A stretch of 64,000 nucleotides of DNA from assembly GCA_916610825.1 (NCBI GenBank), contig OU744448.1, forward strand, positions 2,467,501-2,531,500, given 5' to 3'. Within the stretch, counting starts at the first letter, position 1. Each line of letters begins with the position of its first letter. The position numbers and the translations under genes were made by a program. This DNA comes from Haliclystus octoradiatus. Its lineage: Eukaryota; Cnidaria; Staurozoa; Stauromedusae; Haliclystidae. Positions 15,401-61,300 of this stretch are shown piece by piece. The notes under the pieces were generated by a model. It was given only the letters and a program-made list of their open reading frames with translations, was not told where the DNA came from and ran no database searches.

Positions 15401-18400
15401 AATTACTACTACTACATCAGGGTGTCATACTTTCTATTGTAATATTGTCATGTTCTATTTAGAATCAGATGTTGCGTACCCAATGTATCACCAAGATATA
15501 ATTTCGTTCCTTCGGCATTGCTGACCATAGCACTGATGAGACCTTTGTTTGACTGGAAGAAGAACAATAACACAGTTCATCATTGGACTGTATAATTGTG
15601 CACTTGTGCTTATGAGGTCACACTCTCGGTTATTGATTAACTGTAAAATCTTACATAATTATTATTAGTTACGGAATCTTGACAATAACGATAAGTCTTC
15701 CATGGGGTCTTGTAAACGTTAATTAATCAGCCCTCTAGGCCTACCATTTCTGAAGCACAAATTTAAAAATCCAAATGGCTTAACATTGTTTCCAAACCCG
15801 TTTCATTTTAGACATGGGTTACTGACAGCCTGTATTTTCTTCGTCTTTGCAGACATACTTACTATATTTCGAAACATCATGAGACAATCAGTAAGCTAAA
15901 AATCACTCACCTCAGAGGCTCGTATTCTTAGCTTGAGTCTGTCTCCCAACAATCATAATGTAATCAACATGATTATAAAACATGATGTCTCACTCTTGAA
16001 AATTCTGGGATCTAGGAATCTTGTGATCTAATTATTAAAAAGTCCCACTTCAAAATTTGACAAAAAATTACTCAAATCAGAGGCTCAAATCTGAAGACAA
16101 ATATGTGATGGAAATGTTGTGAAAACAACATGAAAATGTAAAAGGTGAAAACCACAAATTCGTTAGGGGATGAAAAACCCATAACCATGAAAACATCCAT
16201 ATTCACAATATTAAAATGTGAAAACGACATAAAAACGTTGTGAATGCCTGTAAAACAGTTACATTTCCAATGCAAGTTTATCAAGAAATAGAAGACTTAA
16301 ATGTAGTATTGATAATTGCATCAGTAAAAATATAATAAAGATTAAATCCATCATTATTTACCCCTTTGAAACATGCCATTTCAATTTCTTTGTAAACATT
16401 CCAGAAGTGGATCATGCCTAATAAACAAATTTAGAAAACCAAAATAATGAAATCCAAAGGTTTATTGTGCTACAGTATTGAAACCTGTATACAACAGCCA
16501 ATTACTAGATGTTGAGAAATTGACAGCTTATAGAAATTAATCGCTTCCATTATGAAATTTCATAGTTACTTCCATCAATAATGTATGAAACATTCCTCTT
16601 TACATATAAGTTTTCCGAATTACAGTTAAGCCTGTTATAATGGCGACCTCTATAAAGCAGCCACCTGTCTACAGTGGTCACTCTCGTAATGTCTAAAATG
16701 GTACTTTCTATTGAATCAAACCTGTATATAAAGACCACCTGTCTTAAGTGGTCAATTTATCTACCTCTTGTAGCTGACTGTTATATACAGGTTTCACTGT
16801 ATATCATTATTATTGTAATAAGAGACAACAGATGAGGCAAGCCTTTTTTCGGTTACTCGGAGTTTCATGTGTTTAATAGCGATCTTCAAGATGGTAAGCC
16901 TCATCTTTAGTCTCTGATCATAATTCTCTGTTTCAACCAACATGTATCTGAGTTTACACTCACTATAATTATATTTTTTAATATATTATCATTATTATTG
17001 TTATCCTTATAATTATCAATTTTATTGTATTTCAACATAATTTCTCCTGTTAATTTCTTCAAATAACATTTTGTTATCGAGTATATATTATTTTATTTAC
17101 TAAAAATCATTAAATAAAAATATAAATAAACACATATGCCTCAATAAACAGGCAAATATTGCTTCTGGGGGTATCGCCAACCATGTAACAAAAAATTGTA
17201 ACTATAAACAGAAATTTACAAAAGTAAAATTCCAGGCAGTTAAAAAAATATGCCTATGACATGCAGGTGGCTTTTATATACAGAGTCAATTCAATAGAAA
17301 ATACTATGTTAGACATTGCAAGAGTGACCACTATAGACAGGTGACCGCTGTAGAGAGGTGACCGTTATAACAGGTCTCATGGTCTTGTTTGTTTTTGGAT
17401 TGTTCCAACAAAATATCACATAATACACATTCATAATTATCCATAAAAAAGATAGAAACTAAGGTTACCTTTAGGACCATTTGATATTAGTGATGATTTT
17501 GTTTTGTCGTCACTTCTTGCTGCTAAGAAAACCAATTTGTCAACAGCCAGTTTGCCTTCAACTAATCAATAAAAATAATTTAAAACTTAAATCAATAAAC
17601 TTTTACATCAGCATATCATTTCTTTAGCATGCAAAAGCATAATGTACAATAAGAACTGAAAACAGTTCAACGCTAAGTGTGAATCTGTAAATGGAATTAT
17701 TTTACATTATTTCCTATTTGGGGAACTATTCCATACCGTTTTGCATAAATCACATCAACTAAAAATAAATAATATTTGTTATTGCAGCAGACAACTACTT
17801 GTATCCAAGCAATTAGTCGCCACCTGAGCTACTGTTCAATGAACGAGGAACTGATTTTGCTCTTTTAGCTAAGTCAAAATAAGTTAAACAATACGGTGTC
17901 AAATTCATCACATGATAAACATCTGAGTGCTCAAACTACCGAAGAAATTGATTATGCCTTTCGCAAATATTATAGACACATCCGAGGCCATGTTTTCAAA
18001 ATGGCACATACGCAATTGAGAGATACATATAGAAGCAGAACATTTGTTATATATTTATATTAAAATAGAATAGTAGAAATATCAAGAACAACTCATGCGA
18101 AAAACAGTTCAGGAGTCCATGAACAGTTTATGAAAATTGGGGCCATTTGACGTTCATGAACCGCTCATGAACCGTTCACGAACTCTTGAACTGCTTTTCG
18201 CAGGAGAATACTTGGTAAATTTAATTTGATGAGCAATAGTCACATCAATCTGCCTTTAATCATCTGCAGATATCAATACCTTTGACGTTAAACTTGATAT
18301 CAACACAATATAAACGTTTGGTCCATCAATAACATTTTAACCTTACCAACATACATTTTATATCTTTGTTGTTGATGGATGTATTGAATACTGTTCATTA

Positions 18401-21400: not shown

Positions 21401-24400
21401 TTTAGTCAATGATTGACTTGTCAATTTTTGATCAACTAGCTATAACGTGAAATTTAATATACTTTAATGCATCAAGAACTCAATAATTTGTTGCGCATTT
21501 CCGCCATAACCATTTCAAAAAACAAAGTGGTCAATACAGCATTAGAATCGACCACTGCTTTTCCAATCAAGTTTCTTGATTTTGATATTGATCCTTTTGG
21601 TTGATGGCTCATCAGAGGTGTCTTAAACAATTTTTTACACTGACTTTTCAGGGTGACACAGACTAAAAATAATTTCAATTGCAGATTAACTTACAGAGAA
21701 TATGCTCACTCTTCGATCCCATCCAACTGAAACAATATACCTGGAATAAAATGGAATAATAAAACATGGTACTCTCAATAACCACTTTATACTGTTTAAT
21801 CCATCATGAAAAGTAATTTTCTTTTTGAAAGCATTCGTTGGTACAAACCTCACTGCATAAAACAGTTCATGAATTTTCCTTGAGGATTAAATGGCTCATT
21901 TCTTAAAAACCTGTCACGAGCTATTTATTAATATCTAGGAAGTTAATGTGAAGCAGGAAAACAGTCTATGCGTTGGAGTCGAACCCATGATCTCTCAATG
22001 AACCCACAAAATAATGTTTATGAGCCCACAACAAATAATTATGAAAAAAAATATGGATTTTTAAAATGGGCCAGTTCGTGAATTGTTTATAGACTTGTGC
22101 TTGTACTTTTCATGAATTTCATGAACCATCCAGGAAATGTCCATGAAGTTTGCAAACTGTTCATGAACTTGTGAATATTTTTTGAAGTGGCTGATATTTG
22201 AATGTCACCTTTTGTCTGTCTTGGCAAACGTGTTCAATTTCCTTGCCTAGCAATATTTTTTTCCCCAGCGAAATAATGTGTTGATATCACAAATTTCTCA
22301 TGAACCGTTCATGAATGTTAAATGGCCTGTTTTTCATGGACATTTTAATGAGCTGTTCATAAAAAGTTTGTGAACAGTTCATGAAAACTGGTTCATTCAA
22401 CATTCATGGACTATTCCATAGGGATACCTCTTATAATCCACAATGAAGTGGATTGCATTCCTTGATCTCTGGTAGTTATCTATCATAGAATATAATACAG
22501 TGTAACCCGCTTAAGTGCAATTCGGATAAGTGAAATTCCCGCTTATCTGCAACCTGAATCTGAAAACCTATAAACTATCTTCTGGTCAAATGTTTGCTTA
22601 GCAATTTCTGATAAGTGCAAATTCGGATAAATTGCAACTGAAGTCGTTGGCAATTCTTACTTTCACTTAAGCGAGGTTACACTATAAATAGCAAATAGAA
22701 GAAACAAAACTCACCTATTTTTATTTAACACAATATAAATTAAATCTGTTACTTCATATGATTTCTTATCTAAAAAAGAATCAACAAAGGATAATTTAGC
22801 ATTTTGAATTTCAAATTGTAAAGTATATCACGGGTATAAAACAATAGCAGTCATATCAAGCAATTTCTATGCAACTAGTAATGTCTTATGTGCGTTGCTG
22901 TGTTAATTTTGGCTGAATTAAAACTACCTTTGACATGAAATGGAATTAGCGAACACGTGAATGTTAATATCAAACAAGAGAAATGTGGCGTAACAAAGCA
23001 TGCCGTAGCATGGTGCTTTAAAAAAGCAAAACAAAAGCAGTATGTGAAACGACATTTCTTTTGATACGCAAAGCAAATGGAGCAATCATGAAAACAAAGC
23101 CCGTTCAGTACATTTACCCCTGCGAAAAAAATCCATGAGTTCATGAACAGTTTATGAACATTTTTCTGTGGGTTCATGAACAGTTCATGAACAGTCACAA
23201 AGAGTTCATGAACACTTCATGGACCGGTTCATGAACTGGTTCATGAACGTGAAATTTCCCAATAGTTCATGAACAGTTCATGAACTTCACGTTCATGAAC
23301 TCATGAACTTTTTTTCGCAGAGGAATTAATTGTATTTATCTATCAGATGATATGTTATTTGACTCGTTTGGTTTTAAGATGGCCGAGAAAAGTGTGAAAA
23401 TCCATCACAAACACTCATACACAAAGACAGTCGCATTTATAGGTATAAATTATTATAAGGGCGTGGAATATAAGCTTTGCAAAAATTATGTTGATTCTTG
23501 TGAAAATACTTCAATAATTACAGTTAAATATTTTATAATTAATATGGACATACAGTCGAACTCGGTTAATATCCCCTCGGTTAATATCCCACCTCGCTTA
23601 ATATCCCCATATTTCAAATACCACATTCTGTTTTCTATACAAACTCAACTAATATAAATCGGTTAATATCCCCTCGGTTAATATCCCATCTCGCTTAATA
23701 TCCCGCTTTTTCAAGCCCGTGTTGTTATGAAACTCGTTTAATGTCCTGTTTCTTTGAATTTAAAACAAATGATAGTCGCTTCATTGTTAGCGTTTACCTT
23801 TGTTGTGAAAATTATCATCACTTCGAAATTGATATCGGACATGACATCGACAACATTGATTGTTTTAAATAAGAATAAACATTTTAACACTTCGAAGAAA
23901 CATCTTTCTTTGTCTGTGTCTTGAATAAAACAGCTTTGAACATTACTTTACTCTAGGTTCCTTATTGCAGATGCGCCTCTGTTAATGACACACTTTAAAA
24001 ATTGGCTTCTATCAAACGAAAACGAACTGAGTTCACGCGGTTGTGATGTAGGTCACATGTACGAGTGTTATCAACGCATGCGTACTATATTTCATTGCAC
24101 GCTTCGTAGAATAACACAGGAAGAATTTCGTGATCAAGAAGAACAAACTGTACGAAACTTTTAATGTATCTGTGTTAATTGGACATATTTTGAAATCATT
24201 CTATGGTTATCTCTAGCATTTACTATTTTACTTATTTTGATTGAATAGCATTTGTTAACAATGAATGGAATTCCTTCGTTTTGACGAATTTCCTTTGTTT
24301 TTTCTCAAATCGAAGAATATCCCACCTCGGATGATGTCCCGCTTTTTGCTTGCACTGAACTGAATCCCCCCATATTAACCGAGTTCGACTGTATTAATTA

Positions 24401-27400
24401 TAAAATTGGAAATGAAAAATACACTCTGTTGGATCATTCTGGGTGTTATTCCTAAGCAACCTTCACGTTTATTAGCTACAAGAACAAGGGTCGTCATTAA
24501 TTTTAAATTCTGTAGTAATTTTCCGTATCCTGCCATTTAAACTACATGACCAATTGTATGACATGACTTTATACACAGGATTAATTTGAAAGAAAATACT
24601 ATTTTAGACATTGCAAGGATGACTGTTATAGACAGAATGTTGATACATAATGCTGAGGTGACTATGACAGGTTTGGCAGTTCTGAATATGGAGAAATATC
24701 AATGATTTACCTTTTTCTAATGTTTGTAAGCAATGAGCGTTATTATAATTCCATATTTTTAGGTTTCCGTCACGTGATCCAGTTACAAGCCTATGATAGA
24801 TAAGAAAACAATAGTTTAGTTGCAACATCAAATTTAAACATGAATAAACATCTTAAACAAGGTGGAAAATCAATTACTGATAGTAGGATTTTACAAAACC
24901 TATGAAAACCAAATTCAAGACGTAAAAACTAATCTTTCATTAATCTACATTTCCTATCGATATTGTAATTGAGTTTGTAACGTAGTGTGTAAATGTATTA
25001 TGTAACTATAATACCATCGACTACGTGCACTATTTTTTTAATTTATTTTTTATTTGAAATAAAGATACATATATGATGTCTTGCACATCACAAAGCCTCA
25101 TCTACTTCGAATGATTTGTAAGCACAATTCCAATATCGTGTCTCTAATTACCTTCTCTCAGTAGAATCAAAACTCATGCAAGTTATAGCATTTTCATTGT
25201 GCCCGTTTGAGAACTCAAAGATGGCAGTCCCAGTAGCTAAATCCCAGACACGAACAACCTAAAATTTAAAAACAGTATAGGCCTATAAGAAGGTTGAAAA
25301 CTTGTGAAAACTAGAATAGAGAGAATGTCACTAGCCCTATGAAAACAGTTATTAAAAAGTCAATGAAAATTAAGTAACTCAGCGTTCGTGTAGGCAGGAG
25401 GTTCACGAACAGTTCATGAATACACAATACTTTATAGCTATGTAATACATGTAATACATATGAAATCTGCATAAAGATCATATACTGACCGATTTTTCTG
25501 ACGCAGTAACAACATGACCAAAACTATTATTGAATTTAGCGCAAAGAACAGCCTCCTTGTGAGTTGTTGTGAGTTGCATAGATAAAGGTCTGAAAGAAAA
25601 TAGTAAAGGTAACCATCAACGGTGACTTACTTAATTGATTGAGTTCTAGTACGACTCCCATGCGTAAAATGGCACACTAGTTGTTGAACTTTTTATTGAT
25701 AGTTCATAAACCAAAATTCATTTTGGCATCTTCTGCAATTGGCAAGCACGTAAAAATACATAATCAAATCATTGATGAAGTACCCCCGCGAAAAACAGTT
25801 CAGGAGTTCATGAACAGTTCATGAACAGTCCATGAACGTTAAAGGGCTCCAATTTTCCTGAAATGTTCATGAACCCTCACAGACAGTTTATGAACAGTTC
25901 ATGAACAGTTCATGAAAAGTTCATGAAAATTTGGGGCCATTTACCGTACATGAACGCAGGGGTAGTCAGTCAATTTCAAGTACTGCACCACTGTGTGACA
26001 AACCAGACTACCTCGTATATGAAATCATAAGAGAGTTGAAACCCATTCAACGTTCTCAGGCGGATTCAATCCGCTTTGTATTATTCTGAATTTAATTTCA
26101 AAAGAATATCAAATACAATAATTATATTATAAATTTGTAGAATATTTAAAAATATTTTTACTCTTGAAAATGAATATAAAAGAAATTTGAAATGTTGACA
26201 ATCAAAATAAAATTAGAAAACTGATTTCACTGACATTTATTAAACATTGCTGATATTCAATATGTTTGAAATGTCGCGCGTGGCAAAAAATCAAACAGAA
26301 CCGGGTTTCATGATTCCATCTGAACCGCGCGAAAAAATGTTTTACTTTTCACAAGAAAGAAAGTTTGCTTGTTTGATAATCTAAGCCCCGGAAATTTTTC
26401 CGCATCGAAACGAGATGATCTTAAAATAGCTTTTGAGGCCTATCCTCAGTGATTTTGCCGTGGCAAAACAGATCAAAATGTTTGGAAATGATCGATATTG
26501 GGTCAACAAAGATAGACTTTTGAGGATGTTATTGATGTCAGACAAAGACGTCGTTTTTAAATTTGAATTATTCAATGCTTGAGAATGTTAAATACATTTT
26601 ATTTGGTTGATTTTCACAAAAGTAAGATAATATTATGGCCTGTTTAAAACTCTCAAAAACACAAATCTGAGTTGACTATCTTGGTTCTATTATAATATCT
26701 TGGTAAAAAGTATACTACCTGAGTATTTCAAGTTCATGAATTTTGAAAGATGCACTTTGAAGTCAAAATGCGTTCTTTAAAATCATGGTACAGTCGAACT
26801 TGTTTAATATTCCCGCTCTGGTACAGATGAAAAGTGGGACATAAAGCAAGGTGGGATATTAAGCGATGTAGGAGTATGAGAGTTTGTATGGAGAATGGAA
26901 AATAGAAATCAGTTTTATGTGGGGATATTAAGCAAGATGGGATATTAAAAGAGGGGATATTAACAGAGGGGATATTAACAGAGTTCGACTGTATAGCAAA
27001 TATCAATCTTCAAAACAAGTTTAGTCAGATCATCAATTTCTCTTCATCAGACAGCTAGCTTGTAAAAACAGAATTCATGAATCTCCCCTAGACTGGTCCA
27101 AACAAAATAAAAGTTTGAAAGTTGAATTGCATTCTCAATTTATTCATAAGTTCAAATTTTGACTTCAAAAAAATATTGGGAAATGGGCGCTCAATGCCCC
27201 TCCAAATCAATACACAAAGTCAAACGCTCCAAAATTAAAAAAAAAAATGTAATTAAATCTCAGTAAAGTATTTTTGAATAATTTCTTACGTCTATGAAGG
27301 TAACAATCTCAGAAATATTACTGTGGCATTTAAAAGTCTATTGGATGAGAATCTATACTCAAAACATGTGTTTCAAAGTGATGCACATAGACATAAAAAG

Positions 27401-30400
27401 TTATTCAAAACTACTTTACCGAGATTTAAGTATATTTTATTGAAATTTGGAAGCGTTTTTCCCATTGACTTTGGGTATTAATTTGGAGGGGCATTGTGCG
27501 CCCATTTTCAAATATCTTTTTAAACTAAAATTTTTCACTTATGATTCTTACCCATAAGAAAAATAAACTCGAAAATGAAATTCAACTTTCAAACTTTCAT
27601 TTTGTTTGGACCAGTCTAATCCATCTTGTTGTAAATTATGATAATTTGTATTATATGATCCCTGCAAAGACATGCTGCCCGGCCATAATGGCACTCTGTT
27701 GTTGAATTGCTAAGAGAACTGAACATTACAGTTTTGTCTTGAGATATGCTTGTTGTTGGTTGATTCCTACAAAGTTTTACACTCCCCTGATATAAAGCTC
27801 AATTGTATGTTCAATTACTCTACATCTGATAGCTGGATGTTGTACACAGATTTTCAAAATACAGCAAAGCCTGTATATAATAACCAGCGATGAGAGGTAG
27901 AAAAATTGACCACTATACACTACTGACACAAAAACCATGAAAAATAATGTGGAATTTCACGGTGTTTTCATAGCATTTTCACATTTTAATATCGCGAACA
28001 TGAATGTTTTTATTTTTTATAGCCTAGAAAATTTGTGGTTTACATTTTAATGGTGTTTTCACACGACACTATCATGGCATCTTCATGGTTTTGATGTTTT
28101 CAGTGATATACATGTAGCCTTTAACAGAGCATACTATGTCAGACATTACAAGAATGACCACTCCCCTGCGAAAACAGTTCAGGAGTTCATGAAAAGTTCA
28201 TGAACAGTTCATAAAAGTAATGTGGACGGTGTCGCCCTACCGAAGGCACCCGTACCACTCCTCTATTTCTAGAAGAGTGGCTCTTTTCGCTAAGAGCAAT
28301 GATGTTAAACGCTCCTTAGATCTCAGCCGCGACACTGCAGATCAATTTCAACAGATTTCATGGCAGATAGATTTCTTGATTGTCAATGCGCAACGATGCG
28401 CCGCAGCTAATCACAATGCAATTCCTTCTGAACCATTCCATCCGCCATCCTTAGATGGTACTCATTTGATGTTTCAGATAAAGTCAAGGCTGAGTTGACC
28501 TGAGGGGGATTTGAACCACAGTCGATGAGATATGATACGATCTGAAGTTCAGTTGCTCTGCCAACTGAGCTAATCACCCCTTATTACAGTTCATGAACGT
28601 TAAATGGCCCCAAACTTTCATGAACTGTTCATGAACTGTTCATGAATTGTTCATAAACTGTCTGTGAGGGTTCATGAACTGTTCCTTAATTGTTCATGAA
28701 CTGTCTGTGAGGGTTCATGAACTGTTCATGAACTGTTCATGAACTCCTGAACTGTTTTTTGCAGGGGCTATGACCAGGTGGTTGTTGGATAAGACGTGAA
28801 TGTTATAACAAGTTTGACTGTATGTAATATTTAGGCCTACCTGTTTTTCAGACTCAACATATTGATGTGATCAGTTGCAATAGCTAAAGCTCTTGAGACA
28901 GGATTATAATGAACCGATAGTAAGTCCCCTCTGATTCTGTGTGCTTTAGGACGAACAGTCAATAAACACGATTGATCATGGAGATCCCAAACCTAAAAGA
29001 TAATATATTTGATAAAGTGGATTTTGAAATATAACATCATAATCAAATATATTCTAAGCAGTAAGTAGATAGTGGATAGTAAGTGGATTCTGTTTAAGTT
29101 AAATTTTAATTATTTTATATTATTTTAGAAACTTTTGTAACGTATTTCTTTATTATATGTATCTTTAATTGACTTTATTGTGTATTTTCGTCATTTCCCC
29201 AAATTATAAATAAACTTGATTCTGAAAATTTTTTATTTAAGAAAAGCGCTTACCACACGCTTGAAAATGTTTGTATTCATATTGTTTACTCACAAAAATA
29301 GGAAGACACTTGAAAAGAAAATGTTGAAAGCACTCGGCAGGTGTGTGGTAATCTTTAGTGTTGCTCGAATAGTAGGCAACAATGTTGTAGTATGGATTTA
29401 GCAGTTGCTACAAAATTTGGTCAAAGAGCATGAAGAACTTTATATTCTGTCATTTCCAATTGAATTCATCTCAAGCTTGGGTAAATTGAATTAAAAAATA
29501 TAATGATTGCATAATAAAATTGTCGATACCTTAATGACTTTGTCATTTGAAATACTAAATATTCGATTATCTTCTGCCACAATGAAAATATAGAAAATAG
29601 GCATTGTATGGCCACGGAGAATTCCAATTGGCTTACTAAAAATAATAACAACAGTATAGATGATCACTTCACTTGTATTATCTCTATATTAATAGTAGTG
29701 TCTGTTTGTAGATAAGTGATTAAATATACAGTATTTAATAAAACATTATATAAACTGCAGTAGATTGCATAGAAAACTGTATTAGTGTTGACTACTATAG
29801 ACATGTGATCCTGTTAGAGGCTAAACTTAATACAATAGGCCTACAGAATAGTCCATGGATGCTCAAAATTTCATGAACTTAGTTATGTTTTCACAGATGT
29901 GTTTATTCTCACCTCGGAACATATGGATCCCAAAGTCTAACAAGACGATCCATTCCTACAAGATTAAAAATAGGATGATAGTCACTAATGCGAAAAACAG
30001 TTCAGGAGTTCATGAACAGTTCATGAACGCAAAATGGGTCCAAATTTTCATGAACTGTCCGCGAGTGTTCATGAACTATTCATGAACTCCTGCACTGTTT
30101 TTCACAGGGGCAATGCTTGAATGTGTTGAGATTACTTGCAGTAAAGAAAATGTTCCGTAAGACGTCAACATTGGTATTGGTTGATTTATAATTTTTAAAT
30201 TTACTGCATTTCAGGTAGTGCCATATGACTTATAATATCAGCAATTCGTGAACAGTTCATAAAATTAGTTAATCAATAACGATTGTTAATGGAAAGTTCA
30301 CAATGTTTAATAATTCAATTTTTAATGGTTCATGAAATACATTGCATTAGTGATATATAAACAGTTCATGGAATTACTCAATTATTTTTCACAGAAGAAA

Positions 30401-33400
30401 ATATCAGATGATAACAAGGGGTCTTTGTGTAGTGGCTAGAACGTTGGACCAATAGCCAACAAGGTCTTAGGTTCAATTCTTGACTGAAGCATTATTGGTT
30501 GGCATCAAGAAGTCCATCCAACCATTAAAACTCACACACGATTCTAAAAACATTAACAAACTAGCCAACCACCCCAATGAAAAAAGTGAATACGCTCCTG
30601 TGAAAAACAGTTCAAGAGTTCATGAACAGTTCATGAATGTTAAATGGCCAAAATTTTCATGAAATATTCATAAACTGTTCATCAACTGCTCATGAACAGT
30701 TCATGAACCTTCACGGACAGTCCATGAATGTTAAATGGCCCAAATTTTCATGAAATATTCATAAACTGTGTATCAACTGCTCATGAACAGCCCCTGCGAA
30801 AAAGTTCATGAACGTTCATGAACTTTCATGAACTTTCATGAACTGAGTTCATGAACGTTCATGAACTAGTTCATCAACGTTAAATGGCACAGAGTTCATG
30901 AACGTTCATGAACTCAAGTTCATGAAAGTTCAACAAAGTTAATGAACTGGTTCATCAAAGTTCATGAACTAGTTCATGAAAGTTCAACAAAGTTAATGAA
31001 CTGGTTCATCAAAGTTCATGAACTAGTTCAGCAAAGTTCATGAATTAGTTCATCAAATTTCATAAACTAGTTCATCAAAGTTCATGAACGTTCATGAACA
31101 AGTTCATCAAAGTTCATGAAGCAGTTCATCAAAGTTCATGAAATCCGTCCATCAAATTTCATCAAAGTTCATGAACGTTCATGAACTGTATAGTAAATAA
31201 CAGATTAAAACAAGAATAGGAAAAAGCAACTTTGAATGTTTGAACATTTAATTCACAAAAAATTGTAAAATGTGATATAGTAAGAGGAAATGAATACATT
31301 CAAACAAATAAAATATATGATATAGAAATTTAGGAATTAGGATAGCTTGTTAAAATATCAAAGATTGTTTGAAGCCGATTGATACTTTAAATATGTCTAA
31401 AGTCAAATTAATTCTGCTCATTGAAGCCTAAAGCATATCAACTTCTGAAAGTGTGCTGACCTTGAATGTCTTTTGCTTTGAACGGATTTTTCTTGTTATG
31501 GAGCATGATTTAACTTTCTATTCTGTGTACATATCTCTCTAAGTCTTCAAATCATAATGTGATGTCTTACCTTTTAAATGTATAGTTGTATGAGTATCTT
31601 ACTATATTAAGGGTAAATTGGTTCTCTGTTGGGATATTCTTTTCTTGCCATGATTCATTTCAAAACTTATTTTATCATGTAATGATATTTTGCACCTACT
31701 TTAAGAAGTGCTTTTAATAATAATGATAATTAATATTAATGTCAACCTTTGGATTGTATATGTTCAAGAGCTTGAAGTTATGACATGTCCAGTGTTTGAA
31801 TTGAAAATAGCAAGCAACGCAAATAATTATACATTGAACTTCTTTATGTAGTTTTGTTGTGGGGGTAAATAAAAGTCTTGCAAAGCTTTGCATCTCTGAT
31901 TTATCTTTTTGTGTATAATTAAAAGGAAATATAAAATCTGGCCTCACATTCTTTGCATGGTATTCAATGTATACACCAACACCAGATATGAGCAACCAAA
32001 CAACCATGTAGGGAGTAGGTCTACTGTAGTAAATTCTGTTTGAGTTTTGAAAACCACAGTTTCATCTAATTAGTATTCCAAAATCAAGCTTTAGTTTCAC
32101 TTGGAAATCATCTTTTCAATCATGTTGAAGCCATATATTTTTATGTAAAACTTTGTAGAATATCTATCCATCAGCTAAATTCTTCATATTACTGAATTAA
32201 ACTCATTTTTCAAGTTTTCTATCTTTCTCTGGCTCAAGTAAACAAGCAGCAAAAGTAAGGAATGATATAATTACTAACTGACTTCATAAGCCAGTTTTCA
32301 TTTGAATAACAATAGCTAGTACCCAGGTCCAAGCACCTAGTATACATATAGACAGCTTATCACCTTACTATCAGCATGAGATGACAGCATGAGCTCAGCA
32401 TGAATTTATTAGCTTCTCACTCAGACACCCACTTAGCATTTCCTGTTTGTGAGATTTGTCATCAAAAACTTACTTCTTCACACATTGGCTATTGATGCTT
32501 CAGTTTGTTTCTTTTGATATTTTAGCTCGGGTTATCAATTTATTTAAATATACAGGATAATCAACACACAAGAAGGGCCTGCTCTCTATTGTGTGTATAA
32601 TTAAAAATAAATTGAATTTTAATCAATTAAACTATTTATTCCATTAAAATTTAGATAGCCTAGTCACAGCACAGGATGTTTTAGGATATATTAAAGACAA
32701 TGTTAACATTATAATAAAAGTACAATCAAACTAACACATTAATGCATCAGACATGAAACAACAAACTTGAACAAGAACATTATCATTTCTGATGGATAAA
32801 ACTCAGAAAAAAGTTAGCTGTAGATTTTACAACTAACTAACTTATAGACATTGTAATTAATTAACTTAAGTACATACATTGTCTTGACAAATGAAGACAC
32901 ATGTGTGTCTTCTGTCTTCTCCTAAACAATCTATCAGGAGGAGGGGGTCCTGGGAACCTGGTTCATTGAAGGCTAGCACAAAATCAGTAGGTTTTCAAAT
33001 ATAAGATTTACTTTTCAACATTATTATTCATAGGCTTCACATTCATTTTGTATAAATATTTTGAAAACCCTAAAAGTGGAAAGTTTCCTATCTTATCTGG
33101 AATTTCTGATTCCATTAATAATGCAAACATTTTGTGACACCCTGCCCTTAAGGCATTGTCTATTTGTCATTAGTTGAGATCAATAATTTGCTACTAGATT
33201 TTATTGGCATTACTTATATACTGCCCTGATCACTAGGCAATAAGCTCCAAAATTGTTGACATGGTACCAGAAATGCGGCCAATTAGACCTGCATTGATTT
33301 ATGTTTTCCTGCTAAAATAGCCCTTACAATTGTGTGTTAATACAGTTTCACACTTACTGTATCTAGTTGAGCTTTATTATGTATTTTGATCAGAATGTTT

Positions 33401-36400
33401 TTTTTATCATGAAGTTTCATAATAGGATTTCTGTTTCATTAATTCAGAATTAATGTCCATGAACTTCTACTACTGATAGGGTTTACGAGAAATGACTGCA
33501 AAGAATGAACATTGATTGAAGTTTATGAACGTTCATGAACTTGGAATAGTTCATGGACTTTGAATACTGGTTAATAAACTTGGAATGTGGTTGTTGAATG
33601 ATGACTTTTAGTTCATCAAAGTTCATGAACCTTCATGAACTCTGTGGGTCCATGAACTATTTGTTTACAAACTGCTATGATTAGTTCATGAACATTCATG
33701 AACTTGAATAAAAGTTCAAGTCTGTTCATGAACTTTCATGAACTTTGATGAATTTGGAAAACTAGTTCATGAACGTTCATGAACTTTTATGAACTTGGAC
33801 AACTAGTTCATAAACTTTGAGTGTAGTTCATGAATGGTGACTTTGAGTTCATCAAAGTTCATGAACGTTCATGAACTGTAAGAGTTAGTGAACCATATTT
33901 TTATGAACTATTCCTTAGACTTCATGAACTGTTCATCAAAGTTCATGAACTGTTCATCAAAGTTCATGAACGTTCATAAAAGTTCATGAACGTTCATGAA
34001 CTTTTATGAACTTTCATGAACTTGTTTCGCAGGGGAGTAGATGAACCTTCACGGATAGTTCATAAACAGTTCATGAAAATTTTGGGCCATTTGAGTTATT
34101 CATGAACTGTTCATGAACTTGTTTTTCGCATGGGAGCTTACCCGGATTGTGGCAAAATGATCATTCCAACATAAAGAGTGCCTTGTACTTACCACCAGTT
34201 GCAATCATGTTCTTCTCTTTACAAAAGTCAAATGTCTTCACACCCTTGTATATTTTGAAAACAGTTTCATCACACTCGTATCTTCTTCTTTGCATTTGAA
34301 GAGGTACACTGTGTCCAATCTTTTTATTAAGACCCAATTGATTGTGTTTTAAGTCACCAATGTTAGCATATGTGCTACTTGTTGTTGGACCTACGCAACA
34401 GATAAAAACTTGATCATTTATAGCAGGTAAACCTTGATGAAGCACAGCAGTTCTTGCTTAGACACTTTTTTAAATGGGTACATGCAAAAACAAGTTACTA
34501 ATTTTCTGATCAAACAAGTGATTAATCATTTTGGAATTTATTGAACTCAACAGGATAAATCAACTCAAACAAAAATCAAATACTGTTTCAAAATTACAAC
34601 ATCTACAAGTCTGAAGTTATTTAATTATGATAATTTACAGTTATGGATTCGAAGAAGATAATCCTGCTGATATGATAAATATGTGCTAGAAAGTGTTAAA
34701 ATGAAAAGTTACAACATTGAAGGTATATAGCTAATTTTGGAATGTGTTATACTATAAGAGTAGCTATTGCAGAATCAATATGGACAGTTAAATATTTAAT
34801 TTAAAAAAGTGAAATAATTCTGACTTTTATTTTGCCTGTAGCAATTAAATCCTACAATGTTGGCTGAAAATCAAGGTCAAACACTCTTTTGATGAATAAG
34901 ATCGTTCCACTTTTGATTTCATTGAATCACCAAAATACCATGTTCGAGGTTAATTTTTACGGGAAAGAGTTTTGCAATGCAAAAAAACAACAGTTACACG
35001 TAAAGACAAAAAAAATTCTATCCACATCGGTTGTGTCCTAGAAGCGATATAAACAGTACAAGAGATATTTTCAGTTATCAATTTGTTTGAAATTACAGTA
35101 ATACAATGAAACCTGCATATAATAGCGCCAGCTATAGGAAATTAATAAATTAGCCATTATATGCAGGTGGCTTTAAATACATGGTTGATTCTTTAGAAAA
35201 TACTATTTTAGACATATCTGGAGTGACCACTATAAAGACGTGGTCTTTATACAGAGGTGGCCGCTATAACAGGTTTTACTGTATAAAACAGTAAATGATG
35301 TGAAAACTAATTTCAAGATAATAATTACCAGTTACACTTAATCGTATGCAAATTTATGCCAAATTATAACCCAACAATTGAAACATACCTATGACTAATG
35401 AATAATTAGGATCACTTGATGATGATATCACTGATCTGATTGAGTCATAATATTTGAGCTGAAAAATATTAATCACAGATTAGAAAATATAAAATAGTTA
35501 ATAATCGACACAATAGTAGAGGCTGTAACTATCTCCATAGGTTTAAATATAATAGATTAGGATATATTAAGTACATCTTATATAAGGGTACTTAGCATTA
35601 AATAATATTGTCAAATGATTGAATGATTCATAGAAAAATGATAGGCACATTCACTGTAGTAAAGTAATGTAGACCGTGTCGCCCTACCGAAGGCACCCGT
35701 ACCACTCCTCTATTTATAGATGAGTGCCTTTTTTCGCTGAGAGCAATGATTTTACACACACTCTTTGTTGATCTCAGCCGCGACACTGCAGATCAATTTC
35801 AACAGATTTCATGGCAGATAGGTCTTGATTGTCAATGCGCAACGATGCAACGCAGCTACTCACAATGCAATTCCCTCTGGACCATTCTGTCCGCCATCTT
35901 CAGATGGTACTCATTTGATGTTTCAGTTAAAGTCAAGGCTGAGTTGACCTTCAGGGTATTTGAGCCACAGTCGATCAAATATGATCCGATCTGAAGTTCG
36001 GTTGCTCTGCCGTCTGAGCTAATCCTCCCTGTCTAACATTGACTGTACAAGAAATATAGATAGAAACATGCTAAGTTTGAGCAAGCTTATAGAAACTAAT
36101 AGGTAACATCCCCTGAGAACACATATGTTGAATTCATGAACAGTTTATGAACTGTTTCTGAGATAGTCCATGAAAAATAAATGGTCCACTTTCCATGAAC
36201 TGAATTTTCATGAATTGACAATGAACAGTTCCTGAAATAGTCCATGAACAATAAATGGTCCAATTTTCATGAACTGAATTTTCATGAATTGACAATGAAC
36301 AGTTCCTGAAATAGTTCATGAACAATAAATGGCCCAATTTTCATGAACTGAATTTTCATGAATTGACAATGAACAGTTCCTGAAATAGTTCATGAACAAT

Positions 36401-45400: not shown

Positions 45401-48400
45401 TTCTCTGTGAGGCGAATGTTCAATTATTGCTGGCAAACGGAATGCAGTCTATCAAATATAAATTAGACAGAAATCGCAATAAGTAACAAAATCCAAATGC
45501 AGGATTCTCCTAAATCATAATCCTAAACAAATAGTTGAGAATAAATGTATTATTTGACAAAATTTCTAGGTCATCTGATACTTAATGCTCAAACTTAATT
45601 ATGATTTCTTGTTTTGATTAAATTTTAATGTAAACAGATCAAAAATCCAATTTATATTTTATGGTTGATGGTCAAAGCCTTCTTATCATTTTGAGGAAAT
45701 GCTGCATGTGAGCTTCATGGTCTTTGATTTTTTTGTTCTCCCAAGATTTTGTTCTCTCAAATGCAAAACAAAATTGCGAACCTTACGGGCCGTGGTCCAA
45801 CGCCCTAGCCACTACACCAAGGCCGCAGAGGCAAGATAGGCAACACATAGGCAAGCCCCTGCGAAAAACAGTTCAGGAGTTCATGAACAGTTCATGAACA
45901 GTTCATGAACGTTAAGTGGCTCCAATTTTCCTGAACTGTTTATGAATTGTTCATGAACAGTTCATGAACCCTCACAGACAGTTCATGAACAGTTCATGAA
46001 AATTTGAGGCCATTTAACGTTCATTAACTGTTCATGAACTGTTCATGAACTCCTGAACTGGTTTCACAGGGGAGATTGCAGATAAGCAGGGATTACCCTT
46101 ATACGAGTTTCACTTAAGCAGGTAACACTATAACAAACTAAAGGTTATTCATATTGGCATGTCGGGCCATTTAATGTCAAAGAACAGGGTTTGGCAGAAG
46201 TTACTAAATTAGTAAATCTGAATCGAACAAAAATATTTGAGAAACTCTCTTGTGAAGAAATTTACTCAGTTCATAAACTATTCATGAACCGTTTGTGAGC
46301 ATTTTAACTCTACAAACATTCACTAACTATTCATCAAAACAGTATTTAAACAGCTCACATGAACCATTGATGAACATTTTATGAACTGTTCGTGAACACT
46401 TTGTAAACAGTTCAAAAAGCATTCATGAAAGCTTATGGACAGTTTATTAATTTTGAATGGCCTGTTATTCATAAAGTATTCATGAACTATTTTCACAGGG
46501 TTGTGGTTCTATTTGAAACTTCAATCAAAGCTATTCAATGTTTCGTCCTTACGACTGTTCTTTGTTTTCTAATGAGTACGGGCAGAGTCAAATACAGTGA
46601 AGACTCAAACAAACACAATCCATATACATTAATCGTAGGCTACATATAATTCCCACAATTGAAATAATACCAAGTTACTGTAATGTTGATTATAATTGTC
46701 CAAGTCTAAGTGGTTTTGAACGTTATTCCCATACTGAATAATAATAGGAAACAGCGTGTTATTTATACTAATTTACTACATGATTAAGCATAATCTATAA
46801 TTACTTACGTTTGATGGTCTCAGCAAAACATTAATATACACATTTACATCATTTTCTATAAGTATACAATATAAATAGTTTACATTGGCATTTTTCTAAT
46901 TATACAACTTCACGCAATGCTCTATTTTTAACTAAATAACTATGATGTCATGCTTTATTTATCTATTCATTGAACACCCTTAACAATTTATCTAAACAAT
47001 AATTTATATGGAAATACATCTAATTACTTAATCAAAACATTCAACACTGACCTCTCTCGAACGGGAATAAGATTCTTCTTTCTCTGTATATTCAAGTTGC
47101 ATGTATGTACAAAACTCATCCTGAAATGAGATTACAGAAACAGAAATTACCCCTGCAAAAAACAGTTCAGGAATTCATGAACAGCTCATTAACAATTTAT
47201 GAACGTTAAATGGCCCCACATTTCATGAACTGTTCATGAACTTCTTAATTGTTTTTTGCAAGGGTAGTGTCAATAAGATTGAATTATGAAATTGCTTATG
47301 GTGATACAATCTTCCTGTGTATTAGAGATTATTATCTTTGACAAATACATTTTATGTTGTCTGGTCATTCCTGCAAGTAATGTGAAATCTTCTAGCATGA
47401 ACAATCCTAATAAGAGCAGCAGTTATTTACGAAAAACTGACGCATGGCTTGGATGATATCACTAGCACATGGGTGGTGTGTTAGCTTGACAGTGTCTAAT
47501 TAGATTATTGAAGTTTGGGGAAATTGTTATGATTTCATCTTAATTATGACGTTGATATTCAGATTAATTTTCAATGGTGCTTACCCAGTTAATTTCTCCA
47601 TCGGAAGAAGCATCAATTTTCATGAATAATGCCGTCATTTGATCTTCAGTCTTGAAATTATCACATAAAATAGCAAATTCAGATTCAATTAATAACACAA
47701 AGCCTTTTCTGTTTAATATATTAGTTAAAGATAGAAAGATCAACGATAAATTGAACAGTCCATGAACCCAGCAAATGTTTTTGCAGGCGTTTTGTGATTT
47801 TTGCAACATGAGAAACATGTTGATGGAAGATCTTGTCTTGTTAAACAATGTTAACCTCTCTCTTTAATCTAATACTTGGCTTGCTGGGTCACAAGGAGGA
47901 GGTGTCTACATTTCCAATACCAAAACCATGAAAGTGTCATGAAAGTGTTAGTGAAAACATCATATCATGTAAAAAGTGGAAACGATAAATTTTTTAAACC
48001 ATGAAAAGTCTAAAACAATGAAAACATCTATATTCAAGATATCAAAATGTTAAAATGCCATGAAAACACCATGACATTTCGCACATTTTTTGGTTTTTGG
48101 TGTCAGCATTGATAATACCTCTGCAAAAAATATCCATGAGTTCATGAACAGTTCATGAACTTCATGAAAAGTTCATGCACAGTTTATGAACAATTCATGA
48201 AAATCAAGAACAGTTCATGAACATTTTTTTGTTGGTTCATGAACAGTTCATAAACAGTCACAAAGAGTTCATGAACACTTCATGAACCGGCTCATGAGCT
48301 GGTTCATGAACGTGAAATTGCCCAAAAGTTCATGAACAGTTCATGAACATTTTTCGCTGGGGTAGGTATGCATAGAGGCAGAAAGGAGCATACTTAGGAT

Positions 48401-51526: not shown

Positions 51527-51835
51527 TTCATGAACATTCAATCACCCATTGCAAAAAACAGTTCAGAAATTCATAAACAATTCATGAACGTTAAATTGCC
51601 CCAGATTTCATGAACTTTTCATGAACCATTCATGAACAGTCAATCACCCAATGCAAAAAACAGTTCAGAAATTCATAAACAGTTCATGAACGTTAAATTG
51701 CCCCAGATTTCATGAACTTTCCATGAACTGTCCGTGAAGGTTCATGAACAGTTTATGCATAGTTCATGAAAATTGGGGCCATTCACCGTTCATGAACTGT
51801 TAATGAACTCCTGAACTTTTTTGGCATGAGCAGCA
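51527..51835. repeat. GTTCATGAAC MITE with 108-bp tandem duplication
   Basis: CAGTTCAGAAATTCATAAAC followed by TTAAATTGCCCCAGATTTC occurs twice, about 108 bp apart; right end TGAACTTTTTTGGCATGAGC. Confidence 0.75.
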
Positions 51836-52201
51836 GTTACTGATTTATTCTTAAAAATTAAATGGCCTGGTTTTCCCGTGCCTTCTCATTAACTGATCAT
51901 GAGAATTTGGCAATTTAAAGTCAGTCAACTGTTTTCATAGGGTAAGGGTCTCAAAAGGAAACTAATTTTCCCTACTTTGATAAATGTAATTCACAATATA
52001 TTTAAAATCGCATTGCAACATATAATTGAATCATGTTGAATAAATATAAAAATAATTACAATAAATCTAGAAATTGATATAGTTAAAATTAAAACTTAAA
52101 ATAATTGAGCTTTCAAAAAAGTTAATACATGATATAAAATCTTGATTTACAATACCGCACTTAAATGTTTTGAAAACATATCTAATAGTTACATAGTAAT
52201 A

Positions 52202-52207
52202 TTTAAT
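52202..52207 (-). terminator. MANBA: Possible poly(A) signal of beta-mannosidase
   Basis: ATTAAA on the minus strand about 52 nt after the stop codon. A canonical AATAAA lies farther down at 51844-51849. AT-rich context makes both weak evidence. Confidence 0.3.
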
Positions 52208-52258
52208 TGAATGTGTTTCGCTTAGAAATATAACAAGCAACTTTCTAGAATCAAACAT

Positions 52259-52342
52259 TCATTTCACTGAATGAAGACTTTTGATTGATAAAGATGTCTC
52301 CAATTCTTTTGCTGTAATATCAGTCATACTGTAAAATTCAAC
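52259..52342 (-). CDS. MANBA: Beta-mannosidase last exon with stop
   Basis: [20 protein letters not shown] then KSLHSVK and TGA at 52259-52261. Acceptor TTTTCAG|GTTG. Confidence 0.9.
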   Translation of the reverse strand, partial: VEFYSMTDITAKELETSLSIKSLHSVK

Positions 52343-55300
52343 CTGAAAAAAAATAATTGAGACAAATGCGCTGATGGACATTTTAACTTACCCCTGCGAA
52401 AAACAGTTCAGGAGTTCATGAACAGTTCATGAACAGTTCATGAACGTTACATGGCTCCAATTTTCCTGAACTGTTCACGAACTGTTCGTGAACAGTTCAT
52501 GACTCCTGAACTGTTTTTGCAGGGGTAGATATTGCGAAGACAAAACATTAAATAAATAAAAGTTTACTAGTAGTTTCAAAATTGAGAACGCCCAAGACAG
52601 TAAAATCCAGTTTTCATCACAAACAAAACATTGGGATCTAGCATCGATATCAATAGGGTTTTCCGTTTTTCCGAAGTAACTGTTCTGAAAACTCAAACAG
52701 TACCACAGTCCATCACCAGTAAAATTTCACAATGATGTATTCATAAAGGATTCATGAAAATCAGGGGTAGAAAATGTTGGGATCATTGGGATCGGCAGTC
52801 GCAGGCACGATTATTGAACAATAGAATTACTGCAGGCACATTGCTCTAAAATATAAAAGTATTCTTATGAAACTAATTAATTACCTAATTAATTAATTAA
52901 TGTATAAATAAGGTCAATTTAAATTGCCTGACCAGAACAATTTCCGCTAAAATATTTGAAGGCACTTTTAAGGCAAAATTAATGTTTTTGACCACTGTGA
53001 AAATAGACCGTCTAATTTTATGTTCATCGGATTTTGTGAACAGATTATGAACTAATGCCAAATCTGTTTATAGACGTGACCTCTATATAACAACCAACTC
53101 TTACTATGGATTTAAACTCAAATACAGAGCATGAAATCATGACATGCCAGGCTTGCATTGTGGGCAAACATTTTTGATATATTTTGTAATCTTTTTCTAG
53201 ATGAAAGATATTGTCTAAGAAACATGTTTCTGTGAAAAAATATTAAATGAATCACACCAAAACAATGACAAAAAGTTTGAAATTTGAGCAACATAATCAT
53301 GATATTTTCACATTTTAATATGGTGAATATGGATGTTTTTATAATTTTCAATATTTTTCATGTGGTTCAAAATTTTTGTGGTTACCATTGTTGTACATTT
53401 CCATGATGTTTTCGATGTTTCACAACACAATCATGGTTTTGGTGTCGGTAATGAGCCAGATGTTTTTAACAGCATTGAGTAGATGATGATAGATAATTCG
53501 GTCAGAGTGTAAAATTTTTAAATAGATAAATCCATGCCGCTATAAATTTCCATATATTGTTGCGCATGTTGTATCCAAGAGCTTTGATTAACAGAAAAAG
53601 TTGCCCTAATAGATTTTTCTACAGTAATATTAGCTCAGCAGGCAGGGTCTATATTATTATAATTATAGAGCAAAAATACTGTGTCCATTATTTAATCTGG
53701 AAAGAAGAAGGAACTAGAACATTTATCATATTCTACTCAATTATTTCATCTAAATTGTACAATATAGACTAACCTCCTTCTTGGATGTAAACATTAAGAA
53801 TCCATTATTAGAAAAATGGCCATCATACTTTGTTTCTAGCCATACGAATGCAGCAGGGTTTGATGCGCTTACTACTATTCCAAAATGACGAAGGTTATAC
53901 ACATGGACATTTTTAACCTAGATATTGCAAAAGAAAAAACATTAAATAAATAAAAGTTTACTAGTAGTTTTAAAATTGAGAACGCCCAAGACAGTAAAAT
54001 CCAGTTTACATCACAAAAAAACATTGTGATCTAGCATCGCAATCAGAAGCGTTTTTCAGAAGTAATAATATCTAAATAATTTCCACTCAATTTTGCTTTA
54101 CAAACATTACAAACTTCTGATTTTTGGTCACTTTTAGCTCAGAAATCTGGGATTCGAGATCCCAACTTTTGCTGTTACTTGCTTATTTGAGGACACTTTG
54201 ATTAAGTTTCACTGTACACAGTGACACACCTTGAACTGAGGGTCTTTAAGTCCAACAATTTCATTAAATGGTGTCAAAATCATAGGAGATGGTTCCACAG
54301 GAAGCTTCAAAGTTGATTCTGCCACCATGGGAACAGCAAAGATTTCTTCTAATTTTTCACCAAATTGACTACCGTCAAGACTGATGAGGAATTTCTATGG
54401 AAAAACAACATTGCCACAATGAAAAAAAAAATCATACCAAACGAAATGAACATTTCATGAACTCCTAACCTGTTTTTCGCCGGGGATAGCTTGAGACATT
54501 AAGTCAAGACAATAGGATCTCCAAGGTTTCAAGACTGTTGCAATAAAAACTTTTGTTTTAAAGATGTTTTACTTTACATAATCAAGATAATTATATTAAC
54601 AAAAGAAAATCTATCAGCAATATTATATAAAAACTAGCAATGAGTGTGGTCCATAATGGACCTTCTATGATAAAACTTTCAGATCACTTATAATTAAACA
54701 ATTAACTAAGCTGACTATCGCTGTATAATACGGAGTATGAACTCTGGAGGAGAACATGAGACACAATACGCATTGAAACGGTGTAGCATTAATCAATACA
54801 TCTTAATCATTCCTTTAATAAAAATTTAATTTATTTCACATCAATTGAGTCGATTGAAATGTATAATTTAACGTAGCTATATCTACATAGAAAAAACTTT
54901 ATTTTATGTGCTGAAAGGAAACCAGAACACATTAATTATTATAAATTACAAATATTCAGTCAAATTTCGAAATATGAAACTATCCATAAAAAATCACTTC
55001 AAATCCGATCCGATCCGAAGACCTAAAATATTAACCCGAATCTGACCCGATACGATCGGATCGCGTTCGGTTCGAATTCATAAATCTTTATTGCAATATT
55101 TACAACACTAATGTGGTGTTCACAAAATAACGCCGTCAAATTGTGGCCGGTCAAACTAGTGGCATTGCATGCAATATGTTCAATATTAAATTGATTTAGC
55201 TTCGACAAGACACATGGTCCACTGATTTCTGTTATTAACATGATCAATAGACATCCTTTGTTAATTAACATTGATTTACTGATTCATATTAAAAAGAATA

Positions 55301-58300: not shown

Positions 58301-61300
58301 CAGTCTATTTTCATGAACACCTTATAAATAGTTAAATAAACAGTTCATGAAAGTTAAATGGTCTATTTTCACAAGCACCTTATAAGCAGTTAAATAAACA
58401 GTTCATGAAAGTAAAATGGTCTATTTTCATGAACACCTTATAAGCAGTTAAATAAACAGTTCATGAAAGTTTAACAGTCTATTTTCATGAACACCTTATA
58501 AACAGTAAAATAAACAGTTCATGGAAGTTAAACGGCCTAATTTTAAAGAACTGTTTTCACAAGGGGCATTGAAGGTGTCAGTTGAATCAGATAATTTTTT
58601 TAAATTAACTACTGATACCAAAAATATGTAATTTGTATCCAATCTGATCCAAAATAGAGGGTGATTGATAAAGATTGTGCACATCCCCTGCGAAAAACAG
58701 TTCAGGAGTTCATGAACAGTTCATGAACAGTTCATGAACGTTAAATGGCATCAATTTTCATGAACAGTTCATGAACTGTTCATGAACACTCACGGACAGT
58801 TCATGAACAGTTCATGAAAATTTGGGGCTATTTAACGTTCATGCACTGTTCATGAACTGTTCATGAATTGTTCATGAACTCCTGAACTGTTTTACGCATG
58901 GGATGTTTTTCATAATCATAATGAATATAATGTCAATTAAATCATGTGATAAATGTCATTAACTACGGTGATCATAACTGCAACAACAATATAAACAATT
59001 TTTCAAAATTCGATGTAATCTGATATAATCGAATCTTATCCAATCAGAAAATTGAAATTCAATCCCAACATCAAGAAGCAGACAGCAGTGATCGGATTCT
59101 ACGTCAAACAAACCTGCATCATATCAGAAACAACGTAAATCATATATCTCCCAGATGTAAAATCTTTATATGTTGAAATAATAAACGGTTGAAAGAAATT
59201 CTTTACAAAATAATGAAGCATTTTCCATCGTCCTCCATATTCGATCGACGCCCATGATTGTCCTTGCCAAATGTCATTTAATTGCCAATACATTGCACCC
59301 ATTGTATGCCCACTGCCATTAACGATATAGCTTTGGGCTCTACGATAATGCTCACTTTCAGATTGAACGCATATAGCTTGAACAATTTGCGATAAATATA
59401 TCATATCTTTGAATGCTTCTTGTGTGTATGGGTGTATTGGTAACTTGAAATGAGTTTTGATCATGTTAAACATTTCCATTGTACCGTTTTCATGGTGTTG
59501 TCTATGTTCTATTAATGGACTATTCCAAAACCAATCGGATTCAATCGATATCTTTGTTAACGATTCAAATGATGGTAGAGATTGATATCCGTATTCTGAT
59601 GCAAAACGAGGCATTACGTAGATACTAGTATTAAGACAATTGTTTAGATAATCATAAGGATGCACATCGCCATATTGTGGGCTAGTTGGATCAGTTCCTA
59701 TCCCGCCTTCTTTTTCTGTTTCAGCCCCATTTGAGGGTGACGATAATATAAATGGTCGACTTGGATCTAAACTACTAACTGCAGGTTTTATAACATCAAC
59801 ATATAAATTTAAATAATCTTCTCGATATTGCTTGTTGTCTATATTTGTTCCATACCAATTACCAACGAGTGCAACCTCATTTTCATTGTTACCACTCCAA
59901 CACAGAAGTGAGGCATGATGTTGTAGTCGTTGCACCTGATAAATGACCTGAAAAAGGTGAAGCAGCATCAAATTGATTAAAAGGGTTAATTTAGAATCTC
60001 TCACACCAGACAGCATTTGTAGTTTGTGAACAAGAAATTGCACACATTCCCACTAAAATTTCCCGAAATATTCAATAATAAACAGTCTATTGATTATGTG
60101 CAAGGTAAACATCAGCTGATGCAGCCTCGCCCCATTCATGTATTTGATTGTTGCTGTCCTCATTGTTTATGTTCAACAGTGAAGAAGAGTAGCCTACAGA
60201 ATACAGATAATACAGAAAGTCTTCCGGAATAGTCCATTACTGCTGCTATTATTATTTTCTTTTATATCATACTCCACGCTCAGTTAAATGATTGTCCAGT
60301 AGAATTATTTTCTGCACATAGAAGCCCAGAGCGTTGCATGACAGCGCAACGATATTATTTCGACCAAAGCGTAGGCCTATAATTATTTGCTGATTTTCTG
60401 CAGGAAAGGTGCTTATCAAGAGATGGGCATTTTTGAAATGAGAATTTGTATCTTGGCCTGCTTGTTTGAAATAAACTATAAACTATAAAACAATTACTGG
60501 GGTCGAGGAGCTTCCAACCAAAAGTTTCCAACGTTCTTGCTCACATTATGGTCTACCTTAATTTCGTTTCCTAAACAATTACTTTCTGTTACGAAATGAA
60601 TTATTGCACATATGAAAAACACAAGCATCACGATTAATTTGTTTTGCTTTAATAAATGTATTTCAATCATTTTATCAAAAGCTCAAATCTAACAATTGAG
60701 AATAGAGGCGACATCTTAAATAAAATTAGGAAAGGCTGATGTCATCAATCAGCATCAAAGCATGCGGGTGCTCTGTATGAATAAATACGTAAACTTTCTA
60801 CCTGACCTTTCCAACGTTCAAACTATTTTCACATCGCTAAAATTTAGCGAAAAACATAAAAAAATACCTCAATTTTCTTCAGAATTTTGGCCAGCTTTTT
60901 CGGAAACGTAGTTGCCACGTAATGGGGTTTTGTCATAACATTTGTTGTACATTATAAAAATTTTCATAATTTCATAACATTAATTTCACATGAATGACTC
61001 AAAATAAAACACACCAAATTTTAGATGAAGAAAATATTGTTCATAATATATATATCAATATTCCTTTCCGCATACCTCCTTTTTCACTGTTGCGAGGAAG
61101 TGTTCATCGGTTGGATACATTGAACATGCGAACATGAAATCTTGCCAAATTAAGATACCTAATTCATCCGCAATGTTATAAAAATCGTCATTTTCATAAA
61201 TCCCTCCACCCCAAACACGTAAAACATTGATGTTGACTTCTTTTGAAGATTGTAGTAAATATTGTATGTAATCTTCTGTTACCCTCTCTTTAAATGCATC

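Follow-up and report, generated by a model that had tools for sequence, protein, structure and literature searches.

Introduction

Elements of the CACTA superfamily are recognised by repeated subterminal motifs beside the terminal inverted repeat (TIR), and arrays of transposase-binding repeats are known at CACTA ends. Among animals, the CACTA-related TRC elements, namely SmTRC1 of Schistosoma and its counterparts in Tribolium and Aedes, have CCC-initiated TIRs and 2-bp direct repeats; SmTRC1 codes for a Transposase_21 protein and carries 2-bp repeats beside its TIRs in 7 of 14 copies (DeMarco et al. 2006, PMC1636069). Spongebob of Hydra (EnSpm-4N1_HM) has CCC termini and a 2-bp target-site duplication (TSD) (PMC4298943). 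Two-base duplications are also described for ISL2EU, which duplicates AT only, at the target A|AT|T, PIF/Harbinger TIRs beginning mostly with A or G (PMC4482050), and for the CACTA-related Plavaka A, described from fungi with termini TGT..ACA (PMC12730594). In this study we examined a 64,000-nucleotide stretch of the Haliclystus octoradiatus genome (GCA_916610825.1, contig OU744448.1, positions 2,467,501 to 2,531,500; hereafter the window), which contains many copies of a palindrome-rich family of miniature inverted-repeat transposable elements (MITEs) bounded by CCCC-type ends and flanked by variable 2-bp duplications. We place this family, together with a 3.2-kb relative, among the non-autonomous cut-and-paste DNA transposons, likely in the TRC/CCC branch of CACTA/EnSpm, with a probability of roughly 0.6.

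Results

Boundaries of the elements in the window

All 14 copies named in a preliminary description of the window were present; the 16-mer terminus was found with at most four substitutions at 12 starts, while at starts 21138 and 38253 the first 12 bases of the terminus matched with at most three mismatches. In 13 of the 14, an inverted-repeat right end was followed by the same dinucleotide that precedes the left end. Of these 13, all but one are short; the exception is the 3.2-kb element at 30791. Copy 23117, flanked by TA and AA, showed a one-base mismatch. Because two dinucleotides agree by chance with a probability of 0.078 at the composition of the window, agreement in 13 of 14 copies corresponds to p ~5e-14. 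End pairing thus reproduced what had been claimed for these copies, both the 13 identical dinucleotide pairs and the single-base discrepancy at 23117. The short copies are as follows, in window positions; here and in later lists no strand is assigned unless a sign is given.

18092..18206, 115-bp MITE copy, TSD AA
21138..21391, 254-bp MITE copy, TSD AG, inverted-repeat arms of ~111 bp at 89%
23117..23323, 207-bp MITE copy, flanks TA/AA (one mismatch)
25783..25962, 180-bp MITE copy, TSD TA
28163..28767, 605-bp copy, TSD CT
29985..30110, 126-bp MITE copy, TSD CA
38253..38454, 202-bp MITE copy, TSD TT
40617..41020, 404-bp diverged copy, found by automatic end pairing and additional to the 14 named, TSD TT
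45856..46072, 217-bp MITE copy, TSD AG
47150..47264, 115-bp MITE copy, TSD TA
48118..48362, 245-bp MITE copy, TSD TA
48728..48932, 205-bp MITE copy, TSD CA
52391..52525, 135-bp MITE copy, TSD TA, its paralogous empty site being given below
58685..58902, 218-bp MITE copy, TSD AT, inverted-repeat arms of ~95 bp at 93%

Terminus and palindrome arrays

The ends of the family are of the CCCCTGCGAAAA type, that is, CCCC...GGGG-type TIRs, and the exact 16-mer terminus occurred 797 + 715 times in the 262-Mb genome searched (33 contigs) and 0 times when read backwards. A subfamily combining the exact terminus with other subterminal sequence was considered and set aside, the base following the terminus being other than T at only 60 of 1,512 sites; these 60 were scattered over the contigs, as expected of substitutions. 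The palindrome GTTCATGAAC occurred 127 times in the window against 0.14 expected from dinucleotide content, and 101 of these occurrences fell within the 15 elements listed here (the 14 above and the 3.2-kb element). Between neighbouring exact copies of GTTCATGAAC separated by fewer than 40 bp, a spacing of 11 bp was the most frequent (23 cases), followed by 10 bp (8 cases); both approximate one helical turn. The repeated subterminal motifs by which the CACTA superfamily is recognised are therefore present in the form of GTTCATGAAC arrays. The best inverted-repeat alignment of each of the 15 window elements covered 40 to 114 columns and began at the very ends in 11 of them. With sizes of ~85 to 605 bp, the short elements have the attributes of MITEs in being short, TIR-bounded, TSD-flanked and present in high copy, coding content having been examined for the 3.2-kb form only.

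Two-base target duplications and target choice

Ends were paired automatically in the window and the fetched loci, together 317,029 bases (L009 to L020 were dropped, being contained in L021 to L040), whenever they matched with at most three mismatches in 12 bases, lay 60 to 700 bp apart and enclosed at least one GTTCATGAAC-like word; loci L001 to L008 had been fetched through the exact terminus, which makes the copies a non-random sample. Flanks agreed over 2 bp in 22 of the 38 resulting pairs, over 3 bp in none and over 4 bp in one. When both boundaries were moved by -6 to +6 bases in 12 shifted controls, agreement was seen in 0 to 3 of the 38 pairs, and at the expected 0.078 per pair the observed 22 correspond to p ~3e-15. 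Among the 22 short elements with matching dinucleotides, the left end began with CCC in 16 and the right end finished with GGG in 19.

Two insertions could be compared with uninterrupted counterparts, both of them paralogous rather than orthologous empty sites:

53903..53979, uninterrupted paralogue of the site entered by the 52391 copy, aligned with the joined flanks of that copy and holding a single TA
30655..30728, paralogous uninterrupted stretch of the MITE-like sequence that surrounds the 30791 insertion, aligned with the flanks of that copy and holding a single AG

Because the two sites hold the dinucleotide once, the repeats at the element boundaries are true 2-bp target duplications, and their variable sequence is real. 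The view of the preliminary description that this is a dispersed, palindrome-built MITE family with variable 2-bp target duplications is accordingly upheld by the shifted-boundary statistics, by copies elsewhere in the genome and by the two paralogous empty sites.

Over 31 sites the duplicated dinucleotides were TA (9), AA (4), TT (4), AT (4), AG (3), TG (3), CA (2), CT (1) and CC (1). Tc1/mariner elements are characterised by TA-only duplications, which were not found here, TA accounting for 9 of the 31 sites; TA was nevertheless in excess of its 8.2% share of window dinucleotides (p = 6e-4, a post-hoc test). When the flanks of the 31 sites were symmetrised, a weakly palindromic AC[TA]GT context appeared, with A at 48% and C at 42% in the two positions before the dinucleotide (also post hoc), so that target sites carry a weak AC[TA]GT preference. 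The earlier proposal of a duplication without sequence preference thus stands as to the variability of the dinucleotides but not as to the absence of preference, given the TA excess and the weak context, both post hoc.

The 3.2-kb form

The copy at 30791 is a 3,245-bp element that ends at 34035 with AG on both sides; it sits within a MITE-like sequence (30595-34134) whose own flanks, CG and AG, disagree.

30791..34035, + strand, 3,245-bp non-autonomous element, TSD AG, delimited by reading the sequence and by genome copies
30791..31190, array of GTTCATGAAC-type palindromes beside the left end of the 3.2-kb element
33480..34035, subterminal array on the right of the same element

The 2,251-bp interior of this form was scored at 40 places genome-wide, window included, with 95-100% identity (342 first-look candidates), and 35 of the 40 copies span 2,249 or all 2,251 query bases. 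Its exact termini were found 65 times on the left and 72 times on the right, giving 49 pairs, of which 36 were spaced 3,137-3,250 bp. Ten copies elsewhere were tried; one (loci L060 and L061) was not reached, and one (L062 and L063) was ambiguous because of a run of G. All eight resolved copies start with CCCC and carry a 2-bp TSD in differing flanks (AA, TA, AA, CC, AA, AT, TA and AT), although in three of them just the first four terminal bases were visible on the left, and the CC case, lying in a run of C, is little informative. Because the interiors are 95-100% identical at 40 places and 2-bp duplications accompany eight of eight resolved copies, recent movement of the 3.2-kb form is probable. 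The longest frame of the interior is 115 amino acids (aa), and no Pfam match was obtained in the five frames scanned of the 32 frames of at least 30 aa. Two candidates for a longer version were rejected: the most widely spaced pair of 3.2-kb-type termini, at 5,696 bp, held a Gypsy-like gag frame, and no transposase was seen in the 801 bp read, while the second end of the long copy L008 was not resolved.

Three 3.2-kb copies lie ~14-22 kb from a match resembling the transposase of CACTA family C (see below), in differing order (C1:25.81-25.83 Mb, C4:22.92-22.94 Mb and C14:0.378-0.399 Mb). This exceeds an informal expectation by chance, which is not a formal test, and perhaps reflects regions rich in transposable elements.

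Search for the mobilising transposase

Three transposase families were searched for in the genome: PF02992, PF13359 and PF18759. The profile search for Transposase_21 (PF02992) gave 36 matches; 20 of these regions were fetched and read, and the reading did not extend to the ends of the 16 others or of the diverged exons described below. The preliminary description had called for an open reading frame for a transposase bounded by the same ends, and this search, carried out in part over those 20 regions, returned none. What the regions contained was a set of CACTA-ended families, designated A to E, which are multi-copy, have long open frames and show more than 85% identity between most aligned pieces within one family. 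Their termini are CACTATGAG, CACTATGAATAA, CACTACCAACCG, CACTACGAAATG and CACTATGAAC, and by eye they also bear repeated subterminal words. Sixteen sequences entered the end test (L026, L029, L034 and L036 stood outside it); both ends were obtained for 11, and in five, including both family D copies, an end was unreadable.

Several candidates for the autonomous partner were rejected. Family D begins with CACTACGAAATG and its right end was not found; L033, of family E, is bounded by CACTATGAAC and has a TSD of 3 bp; the ends of L036 were not obtained; and the CCCCTGCTGAAA words of family A, tried as matching ends, sit ~65 bp inward of its actual CACTA ends. Further diverged CACTA-like fragments and local duplicates came from a protein search. 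Neither diverged exon tried as a dispersed family looked like one: the three near copies of L082 all lie at C11:9.56 Mb and the two of L081 both at C7:19.98 Mb, L081 also having 33-aa end pieces of 67-85% identity at seven other places. The local duplicates of such transposase exons (C11:9560951-9565804 and C7:19981041-19987989) are mostly open in frame and are possibly old elements or host-adopted genes.

The Plavaka profile (PF18759) had no match in the genome, a weak negative since the controls of that search also gave none. For DDE_Tnp_4 (PF13359), 414 candidates yielded 150 scored matches (an example lies at C6:9834102-9834608); a dozen 525-aa frames tied in score, which suggests a recently active Harbinger/ISL2EU-like family. 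A 610-bp stretch was read downstream of one of the 525-aa copies, whose element end was unmapped, and CGCAGGGG, CCCCTGCG and GTTCATGAAC were not found in it even with one mismatch. A further observation on these genes is that a 101-bp stretch upstream of the frames is identical in two copies; we take it to read like a THAP domain.

Neighbouring observations

On the minus strand, window positions 1380-7495 hold Gypsy-like frames of the long-terminal-repeat retrotransposon type, comprising one frame of 1,571 aa that carries a MYND finger near its start as well as reverse transcriptase, RNase H and integrase, and an adjoining 482-aa frame that by eye resembles gag. To our knowledge, Gypsy polyproteins do not usually contain a MYND finger. 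Other features were:

15173-15244, - strand, tRNA-Arg (TCT) gene
59099-60052, - strand, 317-aa frame whose weak match to glycoside hydrolase family 2 falls below the family cut-off, perhaps a beta-mannosidase exon by eye
L021:1220-3947 (outside the window), + strand, adjacent reverse transcriptase-like and recombinase-like frames, by eye reminiscent of the DIRS/Ngaro type

Discussion

The preliminary description held that the mobilising transposase belongs to no superfamily that can be named from the ends. That position is not supported: a superfamily can be named, since CCC-type termini, 2-bp duplications of variable sequence and arrays beside the ends together fit the published animal TRC elements. 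The family is most likely a previously undescribed one of a kind already known, and its mobilising enzyme was not found. Under the TRC/CCC assignment, a transposase acting in trans, possibly together with a helper protein, would bind the helically phased palindromes near both ends, pair the ends and cut at the outer C; the element would then enter sites loosely resembling AC[TA]GT through cuts staggered by 2 bp, gap repair would yield the duplication, and slippage or unequal exchange within the arrays may account for the variable element lengths.

Several observations weigh against this assignment. Sixteen of the 38 automatic pairs lack 2-bp agreement, although these would fit diverged or wrongly paired ends. 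No element combining CCCC ends with a transposase was found in the 20 of 36 Transposase_21 regions read; all of families A to E, where starts were read, begin with CACTA, and 9 of the 11 copies with both ends carry 3-bp duplications (A 4/5, B 2/3, C 2/2, E 1/1). Moreover, the TRC ends CCCTAGTAG, CCCAGTCAAC and CCCAGCCAAC share little beyond CCC with CCCCTGCGAAAA. An alternative is that the elements are moved by a transposase lineage that lies outside CACTA and has not been described before, producing variable 2-bp duplications and binding 11-bp-phased palindromes. In its favour, no cognate was found in the readable families A to E, the Plavaka profile had no match (weakly, its controls being silent too) and ISL2EU fits poorly. 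Against it, the combination of CCC ends and a 2-bp duplication is already documented as a CACTA (TRC) signature, and the search used three profiles, with 20 of 36 Transposase_21 regions read and the diverged exons read in part; we regard such a lineage as unlikely. The fuller version, in which a new lineage outside the CACTA/TRC, ISL2EU and Plavaka models searched would recognise phased subterminal GTTCATGAAC and insert, with cuts staggered by 2 bp, at AC[TA]GT sites of weakly palindromic character, is a shade more doubtful again.

The resident CACTA-ended families, being multi-copy, with mostly more than 85% identity between aligned pieces and long open frames, might be thought to mobilise the CCCC elements in trans, but their termini differ, their subterminal words differ by eye, and the 3-bp duplications that they make, and that would be predicted at CCCC elements, appeared in 0 of 38 pairs; we consider this improbable. 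An ISL2EU/Harbinger-type transposase, disfavoured to a marginally greater degree, would be drawn from abundant DDE_Tnp_4 genes with many equal-scoring frames and would account for a 2-bp duplication as such. ISL2EU, however, duplicates AT only, in A|AT|T, and PIF/Harbinger TIRs usually start with A or G (PMC4482050), whereas AT stands at 4 of our 31 sites, and the 610 bp beside the one copy examined, of one family, lacked the terminus and array words. Finally, the interiors, as repeats of a short palindrome, could suggest satellite-like arrays that are not transposons and whose flanks match by chance or local duplication; dispersed copies with differing flanks and exact dinucleotide agreement argue against this, and the shifted-boundary control and the paralogous empty sites refute it, leaving it practically no probability.

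Taken as a transposon family alone, the elements are ordinary. Their interest lies in a well-bounded, probably recently active CCC-ended 2-bp family in a genome whose readable CACTA-ended families duplicate 3 bp, which offers, once the mobilising enzyme is found, a side-by-side case for asking what determines, in CACTA-like transposases, the length of the stagger and the choice of target. The phased palindromes also provide a testable prediction on end recognition.

Comparison with known systems

Four terminus or array strings had no match in literature text in the single collection searched, and the available portions of PMC9179366 and PMC10045372 gave no further 2-bp-duplicating candidate. 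CCC-ended MITEs of corals were rejected as the same kind on account of their TTAA duplications (piggyBac) (PMC2872659). Plavaka A resembles the present family in its 2-bp TSD and differs in its TGT..ACA termini; ISL2EU likewise shares the 2-bp length, but its AT-only duplication, one of the traits by which it is recognised, is not seen here. Families A to E of the same genome have inverted-repeat ends and subterminal repeat words, as the present elements do, and the group carries CACTA-type transposase genes; the CACTA-starting TIR and 3-bp TSD (9/11 copies) of the strict CACTA definition are absent from the present family, which has CCCC-type ends and a 2-bp TSD. Its GTTCATGAAC arrays nevertheless resemble the arrays of repeats at CACTA ends. 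Spongebob of Hydra shares the CCC termini and the 2-bp TSD; it differs in its TIR, CCCAGCCAACATTGAC, the available account (PMC4298943) makes no mention of palindrome arrays, and the ends of its short insect relatives were not determined there. SmTRC1 has a Transposase_21 gene, and such a gene was not found within the present elements, but the two traits that mark the TRC elements, a CCC-starting TIR and a 2-bp target duplication, are both present in the Haliclystus family.

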